DNA from: Candidatus Polarisedimenticola svalbardensis
Lineage (GTDB): Bacteria; Acidobacteriota; Polarisedimenticolia; Polarisedimenticolales; Polarisedimenticolaceae
Length of the DNA stretch: 35,739 nucleotides
Direction of reading: 5' to 3'
Assembly: GCA_014764515.1 (NCBI GenBank)
Contig: JACXWD010000032.1
Location: 1-35,739, forward strand
Shown here: positions 26,136 to 35,739 of the stretch, piece after piece
Numbering within the stretch: the stretch's first letter is position 1
Layout of the letters: every line of letters begins with the position of its first letter
The notes under the pieces: generated by a model
Seen by the model: the letters and a program-made list of their open reading frames with translations, nothing else
What the model was told of the DNA's origin: nothing
Databases searched by the model: none
Position numbers and translations under genes: made by a program

Positions 26136-27428
26136 CTATCTTGCTGTTTCCCGGGCGGTTATGCGGGCCGCCAGTTTTCCGGACAGCTGCAGCAACTCGG
26201 GATTATCCGGCCCCAATTCATCTCCGGCATCCCGAAGGGTGGTTCGAACTGCCGCAAGGTCGCCTGATTTCAGATAGAAATCAACCAGGTCGGACCAGAC
26301 CGCGGTGTTCTTCGGATCGATAAGGGCTGCCCATTTCAGGGATTGTTCGGCTGCCTCGGTCCGCTCAACCCGTTCCGCAGCCTTGGCGAAGGCCAGGGCG
26401 AACCGGGTGCTCCGGGGCGCCATGCGGCGGCAGCGATTCAGGTAATCGAAGGCGACTTCCCACTCCCCGCGGCTGGAGGCGATCTCCGCCCGGTTGGAGT
26501 AGACGGCGAACTGGAACGCTTCGCTCAGGGCGGCCTCTTCAAAAAAGAGCAGGGCATCATCGTAACGCTGCTGCTCCTTGAGAACCAGAGCCAGGTGGAA
26601 CGCCACCTCTGCCGCGTGGAGAGCGGTGGACGGCTCCTCCCTGGCCGACCGGAACAGGCTTTCCGCACGGACCAGGTCGCCGAGCCGGTGGTAGAGCTTG
26701 CCCAGAGAGAACAGGTGGCGCTCACGAGTGATCAGGGGAGCATCTTCCAGCGCCCCTTCCGAGGACTGTGCAAACTGCCGCAACATATCCGGATCGTCCA
26801 GGGTCTGTAAATCCGCATGCTGCCAGAAGTCGGGCTGTTGTACCGCGGTGTCGGCGAGGGCGACAGCGGCGTCTTCATCCAGTCCGTACTGGATCGAGCG
26901 GGTCACGAGCCTGTCCCGAAACGTGTAGACACCCGCTTCCTTATCAATGGCCCACCGCAGGAACCCGAAAGCGGTTCGCCCCTCCTCACCGACCCGGTCC
27001 CACGCCGGCCGGCTCAGGAGGGCCAGATCCGGTGTTTCCCCGGCGCGTCGGCGTTCTTCCAGTCGGAAATACACCTCCGACATCCCCTGCCAGGACCAGC
27101 CGGATACAGGACAGCTTGTGGCAGCGGCACGATACCCGTCAAGCGCCTGCTCCAGGAGCATGGTCTGTTCTTCATCGGAATCGGGAACCTGCTGCAACAT
27201 GTCGTACAGGCCGATGCGGACTTCCGCCTCCAGCCAGAGTGTTTCGTAACGGTTGATGCCTACGGCGGCCTTTTCGAGATGGGGCAACGCCGTGTCGTAG
27301 TACCCCTGTGCGGCGGCCGCGCTCCCAAAGGCATAGGCAACGCCGCCCATAACTCCGGTGACCGCCCGGATCCCGAACAAGGCCACCAGGACCAAACCGA
27401 TCCAGAACGGCAAACTCCGTATGTTCAT
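26136..27428 (-). CDS. Membrane-anchored TPR-repeat protein
   Basis: A 430-residue protein with one N-terminal membrane helix (LPFWIGLVLVALFGIRAVTG) and a helical remainder. TPR-like units are visible: AAAAQGYYDTALPHLEKAA near residue 40, LGKLYHRLGDLVRAESLFRSA near 240, AFHLALVLKEQQRYDDALLF near 275 and VDFYLKSGDLAAVRTTLRDA near 395. The TPR domain probably projects into the periplasm and could serve as an assembly platform for the polymerase or ligase. The exact function is unknown. The frame is open to 27635; the ATG at 27428 overlaps the ligase stop by four bases (ATGA) and has GGAG eight bases upstream. It sits between two polymerase/ligase-type genes. Confidence 0.82.
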   Translation of the reverse strand: MNIRSLPFWIGLVLVALFGIRAVTGVMGGVAYAFGSAAAAQGYYDTALPHLEKAAVGINRYETLWLEAEVRIGLYDMLQQVPDSDEEQTMLLEQALDGYRAAATSCPVSGWSWQGMSEVYFRLEERRRAGETPDLALLSRPAWDRVGEEGRTAFGFLRWAIDKEAGVYTFRDRLVTRSIQYGLDEDAAVALADTAVQQPDFWQHADLQTLDDPDMLRQFAQSSEGALEDAPLITRERHLFSLGKLYHRLGDLVRAESLFRSAREEPSTALHAAEVAFHLALVLKEQQRYDDALLFFEEAALSEAFQFAVYSNRAEIASSRGEWEVAFDYLNRCRRMAPRSTRFALAFAKAAERVERTEAAEQSLKWAALIDPKNTAVWSDLVDFYLKSGDLAAVRTTLRDAGDELGPDNPELLQLSGKLAARITARETAR

Positions 27429-28876
27429 GATACGGACTCCGAATGGCGGTGCATCGCCACTGCTGCCACGACGACGAACATCAGGGCGTTGCCGGGGATC
27501 TGATGATTGAAGTCCACCAGGGCGTGGAGGGAAAGACATACCAGGCCAACCACCATTCCGATCCTGGCCGGTGCGACGGTTCTGCCCAGTGTTCCCGCAA
27601 GCTGCATACGGAACAACCTGGAACCGTACGCCCACATCAGGGCCAGAAGGAGCAGCCCGGCCACCAGCCCTCCTTCGACGAGGACCTCCAGATAGTCATT
27701 GTGCAACTGGAGCCAGAGCCGCGTTTCTCCCGGGGGGACATAGGCTGAAAAAACCTGGCCGAATGCCCCGAAGCCGACGCCGGTCAGCGGGTAGTCCGCC
27801 ACCATGGGAAGCGCCGCTTTCCAGACAACCACACGCTCGTATTGTGCCAGGTCGCCGGCGGAAGCGGAGGAAAAGTCCTCGACGCGCTGGGCCAGTTCCG
27901 TGCCGCCCAGGCCGAAGAACGCCACTGCCGCCAGGACCACAACAACCGTGAGCGCCAGAACCCGACTTCGAAGGGACCGCAGACAAAGCAGCACCAGGAA
28001 CACCAGGCCCAGGGCGATCAGCGCCGCCGTCATTTTGCTGGCGCTGAAAAAACCGGCCACCAGGCAGAGCAGGCCTGCGCCGAGAGCGACGGGAGCCTGA
28101 GGCTCTTTGATCGCCTGGATCCCGCCCTTGCGGAACCGCCACCAGGAATAGCCCAGCAACCAGGGTACGGCCAGTTCCATGACACCGCCGAAATGATTGG
28201 GGTTCACATAGGGGCCGATGGACCTCAGCTCCCGGGCGGACTCCCGGATCCAGAGCAGTTTCCCATTGTCGTGGAACAGTTGCATGATCCCGACAAGGGC
28301 CAGCAGGGTCATATTGGCCAGCAGCACGACCTTGTAAACCGTACAGCGTTCCGCCTTCGAACTCCGGCGGCCTGCCAGCAGGAATGCCAGGAAGAGAGCT
28401 AGGAACCACAGGCTTCGCTCCAGTGTTCCTGCAGGGTAGAGAGACAGGCTCCGCCACGGATAGCCCGAAGGGGTCTCCATGGCCGGCGCAGGGGAATCCT
28501 GTGGCATCGCAGCATCGCCGGGAAGATAGGCCATGGCCCGGTCTTCAAGAGGCGGGGCCGCGTCCCGGTAGATCGCCGCCGCATGGGGACTGAGCAGATT
28601 GACCGCCACCGGCGGCAGCGGGACACACTGGAACAGACCCCATAGCCCCAGCAGGAGCGGCAAGACGAGCCACCGCCGGTCCCGGGCCGGGAGAATACCT
28701 TCCCAGCCGGATCGGGACACAGCGATGAACGCCGCCACGACGATCAGGAACGCTGCAGAGCGATACGCCCAGATTTCTACACCGCCGAACGCCCAGGGGA
28801 GAGCGCACACCGCCGCCAGCAACGGCCAGTCTTCCGCCTCCAGGCTGGAGGCCGGTCCTTCGGTCAACCAGGTCAC
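27425..28876 (-). CDS. O-antigen ligase/polymerase-family membrane protein (Wzy_C domain)
   Basis: A 483-residue polytopic membrane protein with about 11-12 helices. The central block IGPYVNPNHFGGVMELAVPW, followed by a large loop with YERVVVWKAALPMVADYPLT and GVGFGAFGQVFSAYVPPG, is the hallmark of the O-antigen ligase (Wzy_C) family. The HNDYLEVLVEGGLVAGLLLL segment carries the conserved HNxxL pattern. Members ligate O-antigen to lipid A-core, polymerise polysaccharides or transfer glycans to proteins; the sequence alone does not decide which. A periplasmic insertion near residues 100-140 is rich in proline and alanine. The GTG start overlaps the ManC-type gene's stop by four bases (GTGA). 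Confidence 0.9.
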   Translation of the reverse strand: MTWLTEGPASSLEAEDWPLLAAVCALPWAFGGVEIWAYRSAAFLIVVAAFIAVSRSGWEGILPARDRRWLVLPLLLGLWGLFQCVPLPPVAVNLLSPHAAAIYRDAAPPLEDRAMAYLPGDAAMPQDSPAPAMETPSGYPWRSLSLYPAGTLERSLWFLALFLAFLLAGRRSSKAERCTVYKVVLLANMTLLALVGIMQLFHDNGKLLWIRESARELRSIGPYVNPNHFGGVMELAVPWLLGYSWWRFRKGGIQAIKEPQAPVALGAGLLCLVAGFFSASKMTAALIALGLVFLVLLCLRSLRSRVLALTVVVVLAAVAFFGLGGTELAQRVEDFSSASAGDLAQYERVVVWKAALPMVADYPLTGVGFGAFGQVFSAYVPPGETRLWLQLHNDYLEVLVEGGLVAGLLLLALMWAYGSRLFRMQLAGTLGRTVAPARIGMVVGLVCLSLHALVDFNHQIPGNALMFVVVAAVAMHRHSESVS

Positions 28877-29901
28877 AGCAGGTCCTTCCGTTTTCGTTTT
28901 TTCAAAGTGTCCACCACCGATTTGACCTGTTCGGTTTTCTCCCGTGCGACCACAAGCAGGGCATCTCCGCTGTCCACCACCATCACGTCCGGAACACCGA
29001 CCAGCGCTACCATCTTCTCACCGGCGAACACGACGGAATTATCACTGTCCAGAAGGATCCGGTTGCGGGCGTGAGGATCCCTCACCCGCAGACGCCCGGC
29101 TGCATCCCATGAGCCCAGATCGTCCCAGCCTGCATCCAGGGCGACCACCTTGACGTCGGCGGCCTGCTCCATAACGGCGTAATCAACCGACAGCCGGGTT
29201 GCGCGCTCCCAGGCGCCCTTCTCGCCAGACAGGTGGCGTTCAACCGCACGACGGATCCTCGGCGCCGTACTCTGCAGTTCCTCAAGGAACCGGGAGGCTT
29301 TCCAGACGAACATCCCGCCGTTCCAGAGGTATCGACCGGATTTAAGAAAACGTCGCGCCCGTGCCGAATCCGGCTTCTCCACAAACTCCGCCACCGAGGC
29401 GACCCCGTCCTTTTCCGGCAGTGTAGAGCACTTGAGATACCCGAACCCTGTAGCCGGACGGTCCGGACGGATGCCGAGGCAGACCAGGGATCCCTGTTCG
29501 GCGGCGCCTGCCGCCCGCCTGACCGCGGCGGTGAACGCCGGAACATCCCGGATGACATGATCGGTGGGGAAAATTCCCACAACTGCGGTGCGGTCCCTGG
29601 CCTCTACCGCGGCACAGGCCAGGGCTATTGCCGGCGCCGTATCCCGGCCTGAAGGCTCCACCACCAGATTGTCGCGCTGCAATCCGGGGAGCAATTTTCG
29701 GACTCTCGCCTGAAGCGCCCTGGGGGCAACGACCCAGATCCTGGATTCGGGAGCCAGGCGGCGGGCCCGCTTCCATGTCGAAACCAGGAGAGGATCCTTG
29801 CCGTAGAGTGCCAGGAACTGTTTCGGGTTGTCCTGGCGACTGTGCGGCCAGAACCTGGTTCCGCTCCCTCCCGCCAGCAGCACAACATGAAAACGGTCCA
29901 T
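28873..29901 (-). CDS. manC: Mannose-1-phosphate guanylyltransferase
   Basis: A 342-residue nucleotidyltransferase that would make GDP-mannose from mannose-1-phosphate and GTP. The N-terminal signature GGSGTRFWPHSRQDNPKQFL (about 11-30) is almost identical to the ManC/ManB-type pyrophosphorylase consensus. Further blocks are VVEPSGRDTAPAIALA, FPTDHVI, the sugar-binding EFVEKPD and WNGGMFVWKA. The bifunctional ManC has an additional C-terminal phosphomannose isomerase cupin (total about 470 residues); it is absent here, so this is the short monofunctional form. The ATG follows GGAGAGACC. It shows that the polysaccharide, or another glycan, uses GDP-mannose or a sugar derived from it. Confidence 0.93.
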   Translation of the reverse strand: MDRFHVVLLAGGSGTRFWPHSRQDNPKQFLALYGKDPLLVSTWKRARRLAPESRIWVVAPRALQARVRKLLPGLQRDNLVVEPSGRDTAPAIALACAAVEARDRTAVVGIFPTDHVIRDVPAFTAAVRRAAGAAEQGSLVCLGIRPDRPATGFGYLKCSTLPEKDGVASVAEFVEKPDSARARRFLKSGRYLWNGGMFVWKASRFLEELQSTAPRIRRAVERHLSGEKGAWERATRLSVDYAVMEQAADVKVVALDAGWDDLGSWDAAGRLRVRDPHARNRILLDSDNSVVFAGEKMVALVGVPDVMVVDSGDALLVVAREKTEQVKSVVDTLKKRKRKDLL

Positions 29902-29913
29902 GGTCTCTCCGGT

Positions 29914-30861
29914 TCAGTAGGCCTCGTAAGTTGCCTGCAGCCCTTCGTTCAGGGCGACCTCAGGCAGGTACCCGATGAGCTTTTCCGCCAGGGCGATATC
30001 GGCCAGGGAGTGCCGGATGTCACCTTCCCGGGTGGCCTGGTATTCAGGCTGCGCTTCCTTGCCACCGATGGCGGCGATGCCGGCAAGCAGATCGTTCAGG
30101 CTGATCCTCTGGCCGCACGCAATGTTGACGGTCCGCCCGAAAGCCTCCGGTCCGGCGCTGCATGCCAGAAGGTTGGCCTGAACCACGTTCCGGATGAAGG
30201 TGAAGTCCCGGGTCTGGCCGCCGTCTCCAAAGATCACCGGCTTGCGCCCGGTCTGGATCGAAGTAACGAAGGCAGGGATGACCGCCGAATACTCACTGGT
30301 CGGGTCCTGCCTGGGGCCGAAGACGTTGAAATAGCGTAATGCGACGGTGGGCAACTTGTAGAGGTCCCAAAACAGCCTGCAGTAGACTTCCGCCGTGAGT
30401 TTCTGGAGGCCGTACGGCGAGATCGGCGCCGGCGGCATGGTCTCCACCTTCGGCAGCGTTTCGCTCTCCCCGTAAAGAGAGGAAGACGAAGCGAACACGA
30501 ACCGGGCCACACCGGCGTCTCGGGCCGCGATCAACAGGTTGAGCGTCCCGGATACGTTGACGCCGTTGGATCCCTCAGGGTCCAGGACCGAACGCTTGAC
30601 CGACGGCATGGCGGCCTGGTGCAGAACGAAGTCCACGCCATCCACCGCAGCGCTGCATGTATCCCTGTCGCGGATGTCTCCACGCCGGAATTCATATTCG
30701 CCGCCGCCCGCCTTCGCCCAGTCCCCGGTCTGTTCGAGGTTGCTCTCGCGGCCGGTGGAAAGATCGTCCAGGACCCGGGCATTGTGCCCTGACTTCAGGA
30801 TAGCCTCGACCAAGTTTGAACCGATGAATCCGGCTCCGCCTGTAACCAGATAGGAACTCAA
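29914..30861 (-). CDS. NAD-dependent UDP-hexose 4-epimerase-like protein (extended SDR)
   Basis: A 315-residue short-chain dehydrogenase of the epimerase/dehydratase class. Seen are the NAD loop VTGGAGFIGSNLVEA, FVLHQAAMPSVKRSV, the catalytic SSSSLYG and Y-x3-K in SPYGLQKLTAEVY, and the substrate block RYFNVFGPRQDPTSEYSAVI followed by IFGDGGQTRDFTF. The PRQDPTSEYSAVIPAF block resembles WbpP/Gne-type UDP-GlcNAc or UDP-GlcNAcA 4-epimerases more than GalE; a partner for the WbpA-type dehydrogenase is plausible. The TTG at 30861 is chosen because GGAGG lies six bases upstream and matches the family start; the frame is open to 30921. The start overlaps the UDP-glucose dehydrogenase region's last codons only marginally, with the stop at 30866 just before it. 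Confidence 0.88.
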   Translation of the reverse strand: MSSYLVTGGAGFIGSNLVEAILKSGHNARVLDDLSTGRESNLEQTGDWAKAGGGEYEFRRGDIRDRDTCSAAVDGVDFVLHQAAMPSVKRSVLDPEGSNGVNVSGTLNLLIAARDAGVARFVFASSSSLYGESETLPKVETMPPAPISPYGLQKLTAEVYCRLFWDLYKLPTVALRYFNVFGPRQDPTSEYSAVIPAFVTSIQTGRKPVIFGDGGQTRDFTFIRNVVQANLLACSAGPEAFGRTVNIACGQRISLNDLLAGIAAIGGKEAQPEYQATREGDIRHSLADIALAEKLIGYLPEVALNEGLQATYEAY

Positions 30862-30865
30862 ATCA

Positions 30866-32170
30866 TTACCTCCCAACACCGGTGTAGCGGAATCCAAGCT
30901 TCCGCATCTTCTCCGGTTCAAAGACGTTGCGAAGATCCACGATCACCGGCTCGCGGAGGCGTTCGAGGATCGTCTTCAGCTCCAGACCCCGGAACTGGTT
31001 CCATTCCGTGGCGATCACCAGCATATCAGCGCCGTTGCACGCATCGTATTCATCGCTGCAGTAGACGACTTCGCTCCGTTCAACCTGCGCCGCCCCCTCC
31101 ATTCCAACCGGATCGAAGACCCGCACCCGGGCGCCCAGTCCGTTCAGACGGTCCAGAATCTCGATGGCAGGCGATTCGCGCAGATCGTCGGTATTCGGCT
31201 TGAAAGTCAGGCCCAGAAGGGCGACTACCTTGCCGGACACTTCACCGCCGGCCGCAGCGAGGATCTTCTCGACCATCCTGTTGGGGCGCTGCTCGTTGAC
31301 CTGAATGACCGCAGAAACGATCTGCAGATCGACGCCCTTGTCCCTGGCCAGTTCAAGGATCGCCCGGGTGTCCTTCGGGAAGCAGGATCCGCCGTATCCC
31401 GGTCCGGGGTGGAGAAACTTGGAACCGATCCGCTTGTCCAGCCCCATGCCCTTGGCCACGGCATGGATGTCGGCGTCAACCTGCTCGCACAGGTCGGCCA
31501 TTTCATTGATGAATGAGATCTTGGTGGCAAGGAATGCGTTGGAAGCGTATTTGATGACCTCTGCGGTCACGACGTTGGTGACCACAATAGGCGTTTCGAT
31601 CAGGTAGAGCGGCCGGTAGAGGTCCTGGAGGATCGCCGTGGCGTGCTCGTCTTCGGTGCCGAGCACAACCCGGTTGGGCCGCATGAAATCCTCGATGGCG
31701 GAACCCTCACGAAGGAATTCCGGGTTGGAGGCAACACTGAACGGATGTTCTTCAGCCTTGTTTTCGTCGATGATCTCACGGACCATGGTGCCTGTTCCGG
31801 CCGGTACCGTGCTCTTGGTCACAACCACCTTGAACGAATTCAGGTTCGCGGCAACGGATCGGGCCACTTCCCGCACAAAGGAGAGATCCGCGCGGCCGTC
31901 GTCACCCTGGGGTGTCCCCACGGCGATAAACACTACGAGAGCCTCGCGGATGGATCGGTCCAGCTCGGTGGTGAACGAAAGACGTCCTGCAGCGACGTTT
32001 CTCTCCACCACCTGCTCCAGGCCAGGCTCGTAGATCGGCATCTGCCCCTTGAGGAGCATGTCGATCTTGGATTCGTCCTTGTCAACACACGTGACGTGGT
32101 TGCCGAACTCGGCGAAACACGCTCCGGTTACCAGTCCGACATATCCGGTCCCTACTACCGTAATGTTCAT
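30866..32170 (-). CDS. ugd: UDP-glucose 6-dehydrogenase
   Basis: A 434-residue enzyme that oxidises UDP-glucose to UDP-glucuronate with two NAD. The N-terminal Rossmann motif is VVGTGYVGLVTGACFAEFG. TKSTVPAGTG, the block SNPEFLREGSAIEDFMRPNR, the central helix KYASNAFLATKISFINEMA and the catalytic cysteine in GPGYGGSCFPKDT identify the UDP-glucose type of the UDP-glucose/GDP-mannose dehydrogenase family. The C-terminal UDP-binding domain contains LTFKPNTDDLRESPA. Its product is the substrate of the neighbouring 4-epimerase (UDP-galacturonate) and of the plus-strand decarboxylase (UDP-xylose). The ATG overlaps the epimerase stop by four bases (ATGA). Confidence 0.96.
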   Translation of the reverse strand: MNITVVGTGYVGLVTGACFAEFGNHVTCVDKDESKIDMLLKGQMPIYEPGLEQVVERNVAAGRLSFTTELDRSIREALVVFIAVGTPQGDDGRADLSFVREVARSVAANLNSFKVVVTKSTVPAGTGTMVREIIDENKAEEHPFSVASNPEFLREGSAIEDFMRPNRVVLGTEDEHATAILQDLYRPLYLIETPIVVTNVVTAEVIKYASNAFLATKISFINEMADLCEQVDADIHAVAKGMGLDKRIGSKFLHPGPGYGGSCFPKDTRAILELARDKGVDLQIVSAVIQVNEQRPNRMVEKILAAAGGEVSGKVVALLGLTFKPNTDDLRESPAIEILDRLNGLGARVRVFDPVGMEGAAQVERSEVVYCSDEYDACNGADMLVIATEWNQFRGLELKTILERLREPVIVDLRNVFEPEKMRKLGFRYTGVGR

Positions 32171-33150
32171 GTTTGAATCTCCGGCCCGGAATTCCGGGCC
32201 CGATACCAGGAGACGAAGCGGTCAAGACCTTCCTCGATACCGGTGCGTGGTTCCCAAAGCAATTCTTTTCTGGACCTTGTCGTGTCGGCCCAGGTTCTGT
32301 CCATGTCGCCGGGCTGCATCGGCTTGACCTCGATCAGCGCCTTGTGGTCCAGCCGCGTGGAAATCATTTCAATCAGACCGGCCAGTGTGATCGTCCTTGA
32401 GCCACCGAGATTCCAGACATGGTATCCGGAGAGATGGTCCATGGCGGCGATGATGCCCTCGACGATATCGTCGACATAGGTGTAGTCCCGGGCCGAACTG
32501 CCGTCTCCGAACTGCTGGATCGGCAATCCGTTTGCGATGGATCGGGTGAAGTGATGGATCGCCATCTCCGGACGTTGCCGCGGTCCGTACACCGTAAAGA
32601 ACCTGAGGCAGGCCACCTTGAGTCCGAATAAATGGTGATGGGCGTGACACAGCACTTCGCCGGCCTTCTTGGTCGCCGCATAAGGCGAAATCGGATGGTC
32701 CACCGGGTCGTCTTCGGCGAACGGGACCTTGGCGTTGTTCCCATACACCGACGAAGAAGATCCGAACAGGAACCGGGTGATGCCGTGCCTTCTGCAGGCC
32801 TCCAGCAGACAGGTCGTACCGACGAGATTGACCGAGGTGTACAGCTCCGGGTCGGCAATCGATGGCCTCACCCCGGCCCGGGCCGCAAGGTGGATCACGG
32901 TTCCGAATGATGTGCCGGACATCTCCCTGTCCAGGAGATCCCGGTCACGGATATCCCCTTCCACCAGCCGGTAGTCGGGGTTGGCCTCAGCCGTCTCCAG
33001 GTTCCGGCGTTTGAGCGCCGGATCGTAGAACGAGTCGAAGTTGTCCAGACCGACTACCGTGTGGCCTGCCGCCAGCAGCCGCTCCACCAGGGAGGAGCCG
33101 ATGAATCCGGCGGCGCCGGTGACCAGTATCGTCTCCGTACCGGTGTTCAA
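32167..33150 (-). CDS. UDP-glucuronate 4-epimerase
   Basis: A 327-residue extended SDR that would interconvert UDP-glucuronate and UDP-galacturonate. It shows VTGAAGFIGSSLVERLL, the aspartate-rich block GLDNFDSFYDPALKR, HLAARAGVRPSI, SSSSVYG, Y-x3-K in SPYAATKKAGE and the FTVYGPRQRPEMAIHHFTRSI block. The GPRxRPxMA form is characteristic of UDP-glucuronate 4-epimerases (LspL/WcvA type) and separates it from GalE. The TTG start overlaps the WbpA-type gene's stop by four bases (TTGA). It directly precedes ugd, which makes its substrate, a frequent pairing in acidic polysaccharide loci. Confidence 0.92.
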   Translation of the reverse strand: MNTGTETILVTGAAGFIGSSLVERLLAAGHTVVGLDNFDSFYDPALKRRNLETAEANPDYRLVEGDIRDRDLLDREMSGTSFGTVIHLAARAGVRPSIADPELYTSVNLVGTTCLLEACRRHGITRFLFGSSSSVYGNNAKVPFAEDDPVDHPISPYAATKKAGEVLCHAHHHLFGLKVACLRFFTVYGPRQRPEMAIHHFTRSIANGLPIQQFGDGSSARDYTYVDDIVEGIIAAMDHLSGYHVWNLGGSRTITLAGLIEMISTRLDHKALIEVKPMQPGDMDRTWADTTRSRKELLWEPRTGIEEGLDRFVSWYRARNSGPEIQT

Positions 33151-34463
33151 ATCGAGTGCACCTTCTTTCGGCCCACCTTGACGGACCGGGTCGCATTGCG
33201 GGTATCCAGAACGACACGGGAATGCTTCACAACTTCATCATAGTCGAACGAAGAATGGTCGGTGATGATGATCACCAGGTCGGATTCCTTGAAGGTGGCC
33301 GGCGTAAACGGCTTGCCGCGCTTCACCGTACCGTCTTCCATCCTCAACGTTTTGTTGTACGGGTCGTGGAACTGGACCCGTGCTCCCCGCTCGTGAAGGA
33401 TCTGAAGCACGTCAAGCGCCGGCGACTCCCGCAGATCCCCGGTGTCTCTTTTGTACGCCGCGCCCAGGATCAGTATTTTAGAGCCCTTGACGCTCTTGGT
33501 GCAGTCGTTCAGCAGCTCGGTAGCCCGCCGCACCACAAGTTCCGGCATGGCGCCGTTGATTTCAGAAGCCAGTTCGATGAACCGGGCCGAATAGTTCAGG
33601 GTCTTCAGTTTCCACGACAGGTAGTGGGGATCCAGCGGTATGCAGTGCCCGCCAATGCCCGGTCCCGGATAGAACTTCATGAACCCGAACGGCTTGGTCG
33701 CAGCGCCGTCGATCACTTCCCAGACATCCAGTTTCAACTTCTCGCACATCATCGCGATCTCGTTCACCAGCCCGATGTTCACGGCCCGGAACGTGTTCTC
33801 CAGGAGCTTGATCATCTCGGCTGTCTGGGTCGAACTGACGGTATGGACTGAGGCGATCGCCTTCTCGTAGAAAAATTTCGCAGCCCGGGTGCAGCGCGGC
33901 GTGGTGCCGCCTACGACCTTCGGCGTATTCTTGGTGTCGTAGACCTTGTTCCCGGGGTCGACCCGCTCCGGTGAGAACGCCAGGAAGAAATCCTTCCCTG
34001 CCTTGAGCCCGCCGGCTTCAAGGCGCGGCCTCATGATCTCCTCGGTGGTGCCTGGGTAGGTCGTGGATTCCAGAACAATCAGTTGGCCGGGACGCACTTC
34101 CCGGGCGATCTGGTCCACCGCCGAGACGATGTAGGAAATATCCGGGTCCCGGGTCTTCCGAAGCGGTGTGGGAACGGCAATGAATATCGCATCCTGCCGG
34201 CCGCAGCCCTTGTAATTGGACCGGGCGGAGAATCTCCCGGCTTCCACCATCTCCTTGACCATGGACGACGGCACGTCCTCGATATGGGAACGGCCCTTGT
34301 TCAGTCCGTCGACCTTTTTCTGGTCCACGTCTACGCCGACAACCTTGAACCCGGCGTGGGCGAACTCCATGGCCAGGGGCAACCCGACGTAGCCAAGGCC
34401 AATGATTCCGACCCGCGCTTTCCCGGAAGCGACCTTTTCTTTAAGTATTTCAAGCTGAGCCAT
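33147..34463 (-). CDS. WbpA/WecC-type UDP-N-acetylhexosamine 6-dehydrogenase
   Basis: A 438-residue nucleotide-sugar dehydrogenase. It carries GIIGLGYVGLPLAMEFA, IAVPTPLRKTRDPDISYI, ESTTYPGTTEEIMRP, AFSPERVDPGN, the central ENTFRAVNIGLVNEIAMMC and the catalytic cysteine in GPGIGGHCIPLDPHYLSW. SPERVDPG and GGHCIPxDPxYL are typical of enzymes that oxidise UDP-GlcNAc (WbpA) or related amino sugars, not UDP-glucose, so this is not a second Ugd. The frame is open to 34532, but the ATG at 34463 has AAGGA six bases upstream and matches the usual family length (about 436). It is the first gene of the leftward polysaccharide series. Confidence 0.92.
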   Translation of the reverse strand: MAQLEILKEKVASGKARVGIIGLGYVGLPLAMEFAHAGFKVVGVDVDQKKVDGLNKGRSHIEDVPSSMVKEMVEAGRFSARSNYKGCGRQDAIFIAVPTPLRKTRDPDISYIVSAVDQIAREVRPGQLIVLESTTYPGTTEEIMRPRLEAGGLKAGKDFFLAFSPERVDPGNKVYDTKNTPKVVGGTTPRCTRAAKFFYEKAIASVHTVSSTQTAEMIKLLENTFRAVNIGLVNEIAMMCEKLKLDVWEVIDGAATKPFGFMKFYPGPGIGGHCIPLDPHYLSWKLKTLNYSARFIELASEINGAMPELVVRRATELLNDCTKSVKGSKILILGAAYKRDTGDLRESPALDVLQILHERGARVQFHDPYNKTLRMEDGTVKRGKPFTPATFKESDLVIIITDHSSFDYDEVVKHSRVVLDTRNATRSVKVGRKKVHSI

Positions 34464-34530
34464 ACATTTTCCTTTTGCGTGCCGATCAGACATGACGGAG
34501 GGGGAGATTGTGCTTCCCCTGGAGTGGAGC

Positions 34531-34560
34531 AATATAATGCTGCGACCCTGGCTTTTTCAA
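34531..34560 (-). promoter_or_regulatory. Candidate sigma-70-type promoter for the polysaccharide precursor operon
   Basis: On the minus strand, TTGAAA (34560-34555) and TATATT (34536-34531) match consensus at 5 of 6 positions each, with an 18-base spacer. It lies in the 101-base gap between the MCE gene and the WbpA-type gene, about 68 bases before that ATG. It is the best promoter match seen in the window and probably drives the series from the dehydrogenase to the TPR gene. Confidence 0.55.
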
Positions 34561-34564
34561 CGAA

Positions 34565-35695
34565 CTACTCTTCAGACAACTTTTCCAGCTGCTCGGTGGA
34601 CAACTTGATGCCCTTTTTCTGGTAGTGGCGCATCAGCCAGCGGGCGAATTTGCTGTCGTTGGTCCCTGCCGCCACATCCTCCAGTCCGTCGTGGAGTGTA
34701 CGTTCGTTAATCAGGGCGCCCAACGTGCCCTCACCCTGGTCGATCTTGCGGGTGATCTCGGACAGGTTGTGAAGGGTCGCTCCCAGGTCGTCGGCCAGGG
34801 CGTTGGAGTATTCGGGGTCGTTGATCAGTCTGCCGAGGAGACCGTCCGGTTTTTCCAGTCGCCCTGCGATGGCCGCCAGCGATTCGGAGGCGGCACGGAG
34901 GGATTCTATGGTCTGCTCGGCGGCGCCGTTCTCCTCAAGGAGCGGCCCCAGGGCGCCGTCTCCCCGTTCCAGCTTCTCGACGAAGGCGGCCAGGGCCCCC
35001 AGGGTCCTGGAAAGGTCGTCCACCCTGCCGGCGAACTCCTGGTCCGACAGCACCCTGCCGAGGAATCCCCTGCCGGCACGCAGCTCACCGGTGATCGCTT
35101 CCAGGTTCTCCAGGGCTCCATGCAGCCGGGCCAGGCCCTCCTTGCCGAACTCGGGATTCTGGATCATCTCTCCCAGCATGCCCTCACCCTTTTCCAGGGG
35201 CTCGAGGATCTTGCTCAGGGCCACGGTGATGTCGCCCAGGTTCTCGGCGATGTACGCTCCCTGCTCGAAGAACTCGGTCTCCTGCAGAACAGGGATTTCG
35301 GCACCTGCCGCAAGGGCCGGAAGTTCCGGATCGCCGGCTGAAAGGTCGACGAACTTCTCTCCGGACAACAGCTGCAGGTATCTCAGGGCGGCGGCGGTGT
35401 CCTGTCGCACCCGGCCTGCGTATTCCTTGCGCACACCGATACCGACCTTGACACCCCGGGCTGCCGGGTCGGTAGGAACCCGGATTCCCGTAACGGAGCC
35501 GACCTGAACACCGTCCAGTTTCACCGGGGAGCCGACGATCAGCCCTTCCGCGTTGGGGAAACCGACGGTGTACGGGACTGTCTTGAACAGCAGGGACGAC
35601 TGTTCTCCAACCGTCATCACCGCCACTGCCAATATCAGGAGCGCCAGGGCTCCGATGGTGCCGACCATGAGGTCGCCGCCAGGTCGCTTAGCCAT
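34565..35695 (-). CDS. MCE/MlaD-family lipid transport protein with C-terminal repeats
   Basis: A 376-residue protein anchored by one N-terminal helix (MVGTIGALALLILAVAVMTV), followed by the MCE domain at about residues 38-117 (VPYTVGFPNAEGLIVGSPVKLDGVQVG and LLSGEKFVDLS). MlaD-type proteins form periplasmic hexamers that carry phospholipids between the inner and outer membranes with an ABC permease and ATPase. From about residue 165 the protein carries five units of 37-38 residues with a G-x-G-x-LG-x-LI core (cores start at 170, 208, 245, 283 and 321). These probably form a long helical, needle-like extension. The ATG follows GGGAGGGT and overlaps the upstream gene by eight bases. Confidence 0.92.
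   Translation of the reverse strand: MAKRPGGDLMVGTIGALALLILAVAVMTVGEQSSLLFKTVPYTVGFPNAEGLIVGSPVKLDGVQVGSVTGIRVPTDPAARGVKVGIGVRKEYAGRVRQDTAAALRYLQLLSGEKFVDLSAGDPELPALAAGAEIPVLQETEFFEQGAYIAENLGDITVALSKILEPLEKGEGMLGEMIQNPEFGKEGLARLHGALENLEAITGELRAGRGFLGRVLSDQEFAGRVDDLSRTLGALAAFVEKLERGDGALGPLLEENGAAEQTIESLRAASESLAAIAGRLEKPDGLLGRLINDPEYSNALADDLGATLHNLSEITRKIDQGEGTLGALINERTLHDGLEDVAAGTNDSKFARWLMRHYQKKGIKLSTEQLEKLSEE
34694..35203 (-). repeat. Five coding repeats of about 38 residues in the MCE protein
   Basis: The cores read GEGMLGEMI, GRGFLGRVL, GDGALGPLL, PDGLLGRLI and GEGTLGALI. They are spaced 38, 37, 38 and 38 residues apart, each followed by an amphipathic helix with an L-x2-L-x3-I-like pattern. 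The DNA is diverged, so the repeats are old and maintained at protein level. Confidence 0.8.
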
Positions 35696-35739
35696 ACCCT
35701 CCCCCTTCGAGAAACCCTTTCAGGATCGGTTCATCCGTA
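35688..35739 (-). CDS. C-terminal end of an upstream gene, probably the Mla-type ABC ATPase
   Basis: Only the last 16 codons are in the window. They read TDEPILKGFLEGGGYG before a TAA stop that lies inside the first codons of the MCE gene (eight-base overlap). The pattern aspartate, acidic residue, proline, then hydrophobic residues and F-L-x-G resembles the C-terminus of MlaF-type ATPases, which often precede MCE genes. The identity is inferred from this short tail and the context. Confidence 0.45.
   Translation of the reverse strand, partial: TDEPILKGFLEGGGYG

Follow-up and report, generated by a model that had tools for sequence, protein, structure and literature searches.

The window, that is, the whole stretch of 35,739 nucleotides that was analysed, probably carries the mlaD gene of an MlaEFD system in which a five-core MlaD tube replaces MlaC and MlaA, the number of cores being held at five and the lengths of the segments tuned. 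Within a minimal MlaEFD lipid transporter, the gene product would serve as the MCE subunit, with its N-terminal helix as inner-membrane anchor. An MCE ring of six copies would sit above MlaE and MlaF, and the six tails would extend outwards side by side. Glycine cores would interrupt the helix of each tail, so that the presumed tube would be a pile of stacked six-helix bundles, with phospholipid passing along its greasy lumen. The tube would do the work of MlaC, a soluble carrier, and of MlaA, which resides in the outer membrane; at its far end a basic C-terminal stretch might touch the outer membrane. Lineages would alter the lengths of individual segments, mostly by whole coiled-coil turns, while the core count stayed at five.

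The mlaD-like gene and its genomic context

The mlaD-like gene (open reading frame at 34565-35695; this and all features below are on the minus strand) encodes a protein of 376 aa with a single MCE domain and a long C-terminal tail. A putative N-terminal transmembrane helix (residues 7-30; 35606-35677) was hydrophobic by eye and helical, with low pLDDT, in the AlphaFold2 model. The MCE (MlaD) domain (residues 39-121; 35333-35581) matched PF02470 (E 3.3e-18; 66.1 bits against the curated Pfam cut-off of 25.1) and was modelled with more confidence than the rest. The Pfam search of the protein gave nothing besides PF02470 above cut-off, and the window gene was the only PF02470 match genome-wide. 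Scores remained below cut-off for the NCBIfam OM_asym_MlaD equivalog (50.6 bits, cut-off 135) and for the mycobacterial Mce family TIGR00996 (71 bits, cut-off 140.5; match over residues 12-282). The window protein is an elongated MlaD, a published and widespread type (PMC10665443).

The window is an entire contig (C162), with mlaD at its edge. The sole MlaE match of the genome was found close to the end of another contig (C143), where an ABC ATPase gene comes after the MlaE gene and runs up to the contig edge (ATPase confirmed by family search). The 55 terminal bases of C143 are identical to the first 55 bases of the reverse-complemented window (35685-35739), the start of mlaD included. Because C143 carries mlaE and mlaF and shares this 55-base end with the window, mlaE-mlaF-mlaD is an operon split by an assembly break, with mlaD as its last gene. 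Three named relatives were found, all in Acidobacteriota (L002, 88% identity; L003 and L004 ('Acidobacteria bacterium Mor1'), 53%), and in L002 and L004 genes for an MlaE permease (PF02405) and an ABC ATPase (ABC_tran) stand directly upstream of mlaD.

MlaC and MlaA (PF05494, PF04333) had no match in the genome, which was rated 100% complete, and E. coli and Caulobacter controls were positive; PqiC (PF03886) likewise had no match in the genome. TamB and LptD were both detected. Since LptD and TamB were found while MlaA, MlaC and PqiC were undetected, the organism would seem to be a diderm that has LPS transport and an Mla system lacking a carrier. In the short flanks covered, none of the gene clusters near mlaD could be recognised from ORF clustering alone as an outer-membrane partner. 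Downstream of mlaD lies a polysaccharide gene set (27425-34532), with two UDP-glucose/GDP-mannose dehydrogenases, two epimerases, a nucleotidyl transferase and an O-antigen ligase-like protein. Judged by representative sequence, epimerase-like ORF clusters were present in 21 of 131 fetched loci and dehydrogenase-like clusters in 13 of 131.

Repeat cores in the window protein and in relatives

The five cores of the tail start at residues 170, 208, 245, 283 and 321 (spacings 38, 37, 38 and 38), exactly the positions given by the original prediction. The motif that it had proposed, G-x-G-x-LG-x-LI, fits the core at residue 321 alone when read strictly, but all five cores match it in the relaxed form [GP]-x-G-x-LG-x-[LMV]-[IL]. 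Ahead of the first core the model placed, at low confidence, a first tail helix (residues 142-169; 35189-35272). Motif and relatives' alignment delimit unit 1 (residues 170-207; 35075-35188; core GEGMLGEMI), unit 2 (residues 208-244; 34964-35074; core GRGFLGRVL), unit 3 (residues 245-282; 34850-34963; core GDGALGPLL) and unit 4 (residues 283-320; 34736-34849; core PDGLLGRLI). The partial unit 5 (residues 321-345; 34661-34735; core GEGTLGALI) contains G321, G323, T324 and G326, which are invariant in a 12-sequence alignment. A basic C-terminal stretch (residues 346-363, NDSKFARWLMRHYQKKGI; 34607-34660), probably a helix, is conserved in alignments of close homologues.

Self-similarity of the tail (BLOSUM62; residues 141-376; lags 5-89) was highest at lags 75 and 38, with a maximum that none of 2000 shuffles equalled. 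The tail scored 0.19 at lag 38, where the shuffles averaged -0.86 (SD 0.16). The periodicity of the tail exceeds chance. The cores aligned in 12 relatives with identity to the window protein down to 23%; among their glycines, G208, G213, G321, G323 and G326 were invariant and G170, G172, G175, G210, G247 and G285 nearly so.

The unit consensus from the detected copies, GEGTLGKLLNDPELYENLDNLNATLASLNSILARID (36 model positions), is mostly hydrophobic at positions 14, 18, 21, 25, 28, 32 and 35, a 4-3 heptad pattern that comes after the glycine-rich break. The AlphaFold2 layout, at low confidence, agreed with the consensus and gave every core but the first a short helix, the first lying inside a continuous helix. 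The 'stack of short helices' that had been proposed needs some correction: in this low-confidence model a unit consists largely of a single helix of ~22-26 residues and a glycine-rich break. No strands were present in the tail in either AlphaFold2 model, at low confidence. Run on four sequences each, the full-length model reached a mean pLDDT of 50.1 and the tail-only model 43.6. Because pLDDT was low, the tertiary fold was set aside; the model is taken as speaking neither for nor against a rod, and its secondary structure alone was used.

The survey of relatives was based on 149 Acidobacteriota genomes, 129 of them with a match, and loci were taken from 117 of the 129. The 12 genomes left out had weak or fragmentary matches, genomes with several matches were sampled in part, and the sample leans towards clear relatives. 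After L001, L005, L007 (same sequence as L004), L035 and L036 were dropped, the final set comprised 134 MCE proteins, the window protein and one from Hymenobacter included. Five cores were detected in 67 proteins, four in 26, three in 3, two in 1 (Hymenobacter), one in 31 and none in 6; at least three cores were thus detected in 96 of the 134 proteins and fewer in 38. Core slots were counted by a rule of our own, in which each gap of more than 50 residues adds one skipped core and a late first core adds another; on this count five slots were obtained for 95 of the 96 multi-core proteins and four for the remaining one. Skipped cores, where inspected, were degenerate, yet in place. The repeat count in homologues that the original prediction had called for therefore came out as constant at five slots among Acidobacteriota multi-core proteins (95 of 96).

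The 31 single-core proteins were 349-517 aa long, and in 27 of them the core followed the MCE domain by 137-155 residues. They look like a separate class and not like part of a graded series. A second Acidobacteriota MlaD class was seen in L091, L095, L099, L102-L104, L107-L112 and similar proteins (mostly 424-517 aa, one core). The C-terminal part of the single-core class is long, and several members end in alternating sequence that is barrel-like by eye. L094 resembles this class and has no detected core.

The Hymenobacter locus (L096 2300-4888; plasmid CP014769.1, Bacteroidota) holds a trio of permease, ATPase and MlaD-like genes, the last encoding two HMM-detected cores 45 residues apart and a third, degenerate, recognised by eye. 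A plasmid search with the window protein gave one relative, in Bacteroidota, and a search with the Bacteroidota relative as query gave 18 other records, all actinobacterial. No plasmid relative was found with a relative of the 34-residue type as query. A plasmid search with MlaE, run to look for other phyla, gave 358 records. Two scans of viral contigs found no relatives.

Reach, far end and segment lengths of the tail

Residues 142-360 would extend ~33 nm if fully axial (1.5 Å per residue), and scaling on Mce1 would give ~9-11 nm for five or six modules; both values are arithmetic. A terminal strand of the PKKYLxI type was present in 55 of the 96 multi-core proteins and missing, by pattern, from 41, the window protein among them. 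Past the last core, 36 of these 41 proteins had W plus a hydrophobic residue (as in RWLMR), and the ends of the 41 were mostly basic by eye. In the window protein the basic stretch at residues 346-363 occupies the place of the PKKYLxI strand of other relatives, and we infer that it is the best candidate for a far-end contact. The PKKYLxI-type strand recalls the six-stranded mini-barrel that Grasekamp et al. predicted for two barrel-less sequences (PMC10665443). Thirteen proteins with PKKYLxI-type ends had the MCE domain in two separate HMM pieces per chain, as if split by an insertion (L069, L070, L073, L075, L078, L080, L082, L084-L086, L088, L089, L092).

The short end of the window protein, which has neither the terminal strand present in 55 of 96 proteins nor a barrel-like extension, and the mere ~9-11 nm given by Mce1 scaling (against ~33 nm fully axial) would suit a needle too short for the outer membrane, from which lipid is passed to a soluble or outer-membrane partner via the basic C-terminal stretch. 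Such a handover is rather unlikely, the MlaC, MlaA and PqiC families having gone undetected and the limited search near mlaD having recognised no partner.

Unit length ranged from 27 to 48 aa across the 96 multi-core proteins and was mostly 34, 38 or 41. Spacings of 34 (178 times), 38 (89), 41 (38), 37 (15), 42 (5) and 27 (3) were recorded, with 31, 39 and 48 once each and 21 longer gaps over undetected cores. A ladder climbing from 27 to 48 in 3.5-residue steps accommodated nearly all spacings to within half a residue; 42 and 39 lay off it. Since related proteins are not independent, length changes were inferred on a tree of the MCE domain, with gaps over undetected cores treated as missing. 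Fourteen of the 20 inferred changes were of 3, 4 or 7 residues (p = 0.013 against 3/7); the six off the ladder were three of 1 residue, one of 2 and two of 8. These sequence comparisons give moderate support to length changes that may often be whole helix turns.

Single segments changed without their neighbours, as in the spacing series (41,34,34,34), (34,34,41,34) and (27,34,34,34). Because single segments change length alone, antiparallel pairing of neighbouring helices is disfavoured, and the pattern would be easier to reconcile with identical subunits bundled in parallel than with antiparallel hairpins. It is accordingly improbable that the units fold back as antiparallel helical hairpins into a compact bundle or collar around the MCE ring: the glycine-rich breaks between amphipathic helices could serve as turns, but paired helices would be mismatched when neighbouring segments vary independently. 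Matches to the tail profile in the PDB were all weak, the best having an E value of 0.00043, and most were to designed coiled coils or syntaxins. Among them were the sc-apCC designs, which we take to be antiparallel coiled coils and which would speak for hairpins; these and similar coiled-coil matches look like low-complexity helical ones. Mean-field coupling, a weak test run on 228 pairs of adjacent units (effective number 158), gave no clear contacts between units, either parallel or antiparallel. Against hairpins, too, long-tailed relatives form extended needles, one of them solved (Mce1) and one modelled (Veillonella).

With side-by-side tails forming a tube as the preferred reading, the lengthening of the hexamer into the periplasm that had been proposed would fit the Mce1 and Veillonella precedents and the single-segment, often whole-turn length changes. 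An extended tube is in this way partly supported, by precedent and length pattern rather than by a structure of the window protein. In the 67 proteins where every one of the five cores was detected, core 1 and core 5 lay 129-159 residues apart. A narrower version, somewhat less likely than not, would have the five cores as fixed nodes of the MlaD needle, reach being tuned only by helical turns gained or lost inside the segments, so that each core would retain its rotational phase around the tube.

The suggestion that repeat number sets the reach was not supported within Acidobacteriota, and a ruler in which periplasm width is matched by the gain or loss of whole units in a lineage is very improbable: repeats exist and could in principle duplicate, and the two detected cores of the Hymenobacter protein (with a third by eye) leave room for counts that differ between phyla, but the slot count departs from five in a single sampled Acidobacteriota multi-core protein, which has four, 31 of the 38 remaining proteins look like a single-core class rather than a graded series, and the core 1-core 5 span differs through unit length. 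Repeat number as a ruler was rejected for the Acidobacteriota sampled, where the slot count of multi-core proteins is all but constant while unit length changes.

Comparison with known systems

E. coli MlaD (MlaFEDB) has in common with the window protein a transmembrane helix, an MCE domain and MlaE and MlaF as partners, but it is without the long tail, has a small C-terminal helical region and works with MlaA, MlaB and MlaC. At 183 aa against 376 it is about half as long, as had been predicted, and by the published description it lacks these repeats (PMC10665443). The Leptospira Mce family NF047463 (model length 250) matched the window protein in two stretches, best at the fifth core (residues 303-341), with 72.7 bits against a cut-off of 400, a likeness by family model alone.

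PqiB and LetB also belong to the MCE proteins and form tubes across the periplasm. They differ from the window protein in having several MCE domains per chain instead of one. PqiB forms a helical tunnel (PMC10665443).

The closest counterparts are two long-tailed systems. The elongated MlaD of Veillonella parvula and other diderms (Grasekamp et al. 2023, PMC10665443) also belongs to an MlaEFD system without MlaA and MlaC and also has one transmembrane helix, one MCE domain and a long helical tail (helices in the window protein being suggested by the low-confidence model and the heptads). Long MlaD make up 85% of homologues in that account and average 374 aa, against 376 aa here. Veillonella MlaD ends in a C-terminal beta-barrel, a feature of only some members of the elongated type, and fractionates with the outer membrane (PMC10665443), whereas the window protein ends in a short basic stretch.

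The Mce1 needle of Mycobacterium smegmatis (PMC9882608; PDB 8fed) likewise has an MCE domain followed by kink-separated helical repeats, eight per subunit. Six-helix bundles of these repeats pile up to give a hydrophobic needle, in which eight modules make two superhelix turns of ~75 Å. Mce1 is a heterohexamer with a portal, whereas the window protein, with five cores, presumably forms a homohexamer. The glycine cores are much clearer in the window protein than in Mce1, and one 38-residue unit need not equal one of the eight Mce1 modules. Foldseek with the AlphaFold2 model gave Mce1B as its best match (352 columns, rmsd 58 Å, no global superposition). The 12-relative profile aligned to solved Mce1B over residues 10-259, a match that begins in the MCE domain and reaches the helical part, with core-like stretches, in our reading, at GGTINDILD (~171), KQFDETLVN (~214) and AGSLADLLSD (~248). 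Because the Mce1 needle has been solved and both the profile alignment and Foldseek point to Mce1B, stacked helical repeats in an MCE tail appear to be a mechanism already known.

The five-core register was not found in print within the literature searched. In the main text of PMC10665443, none of the five passages with 'repeat' concerns sequence repeats, and the terms 'acidobacter', 'glycine', 'kink', 'heptad' and 'coiled' are absent. The register matters since long MlaD is reported there as the common form, yet its helical part is hard to model, the helical tail of Veillonella MlaD having escaped confident prediction (PMC10665443). Five cores with defined spacing are landmarks for building and testing hexamer models and for placing cross-links, and a clear register lets one ask how tube length matches envelope width. 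Set beside the Veillonella and Mce1 systems, the transport system itself is known; the fixed core count is the new detail, as a modest comparative rule.
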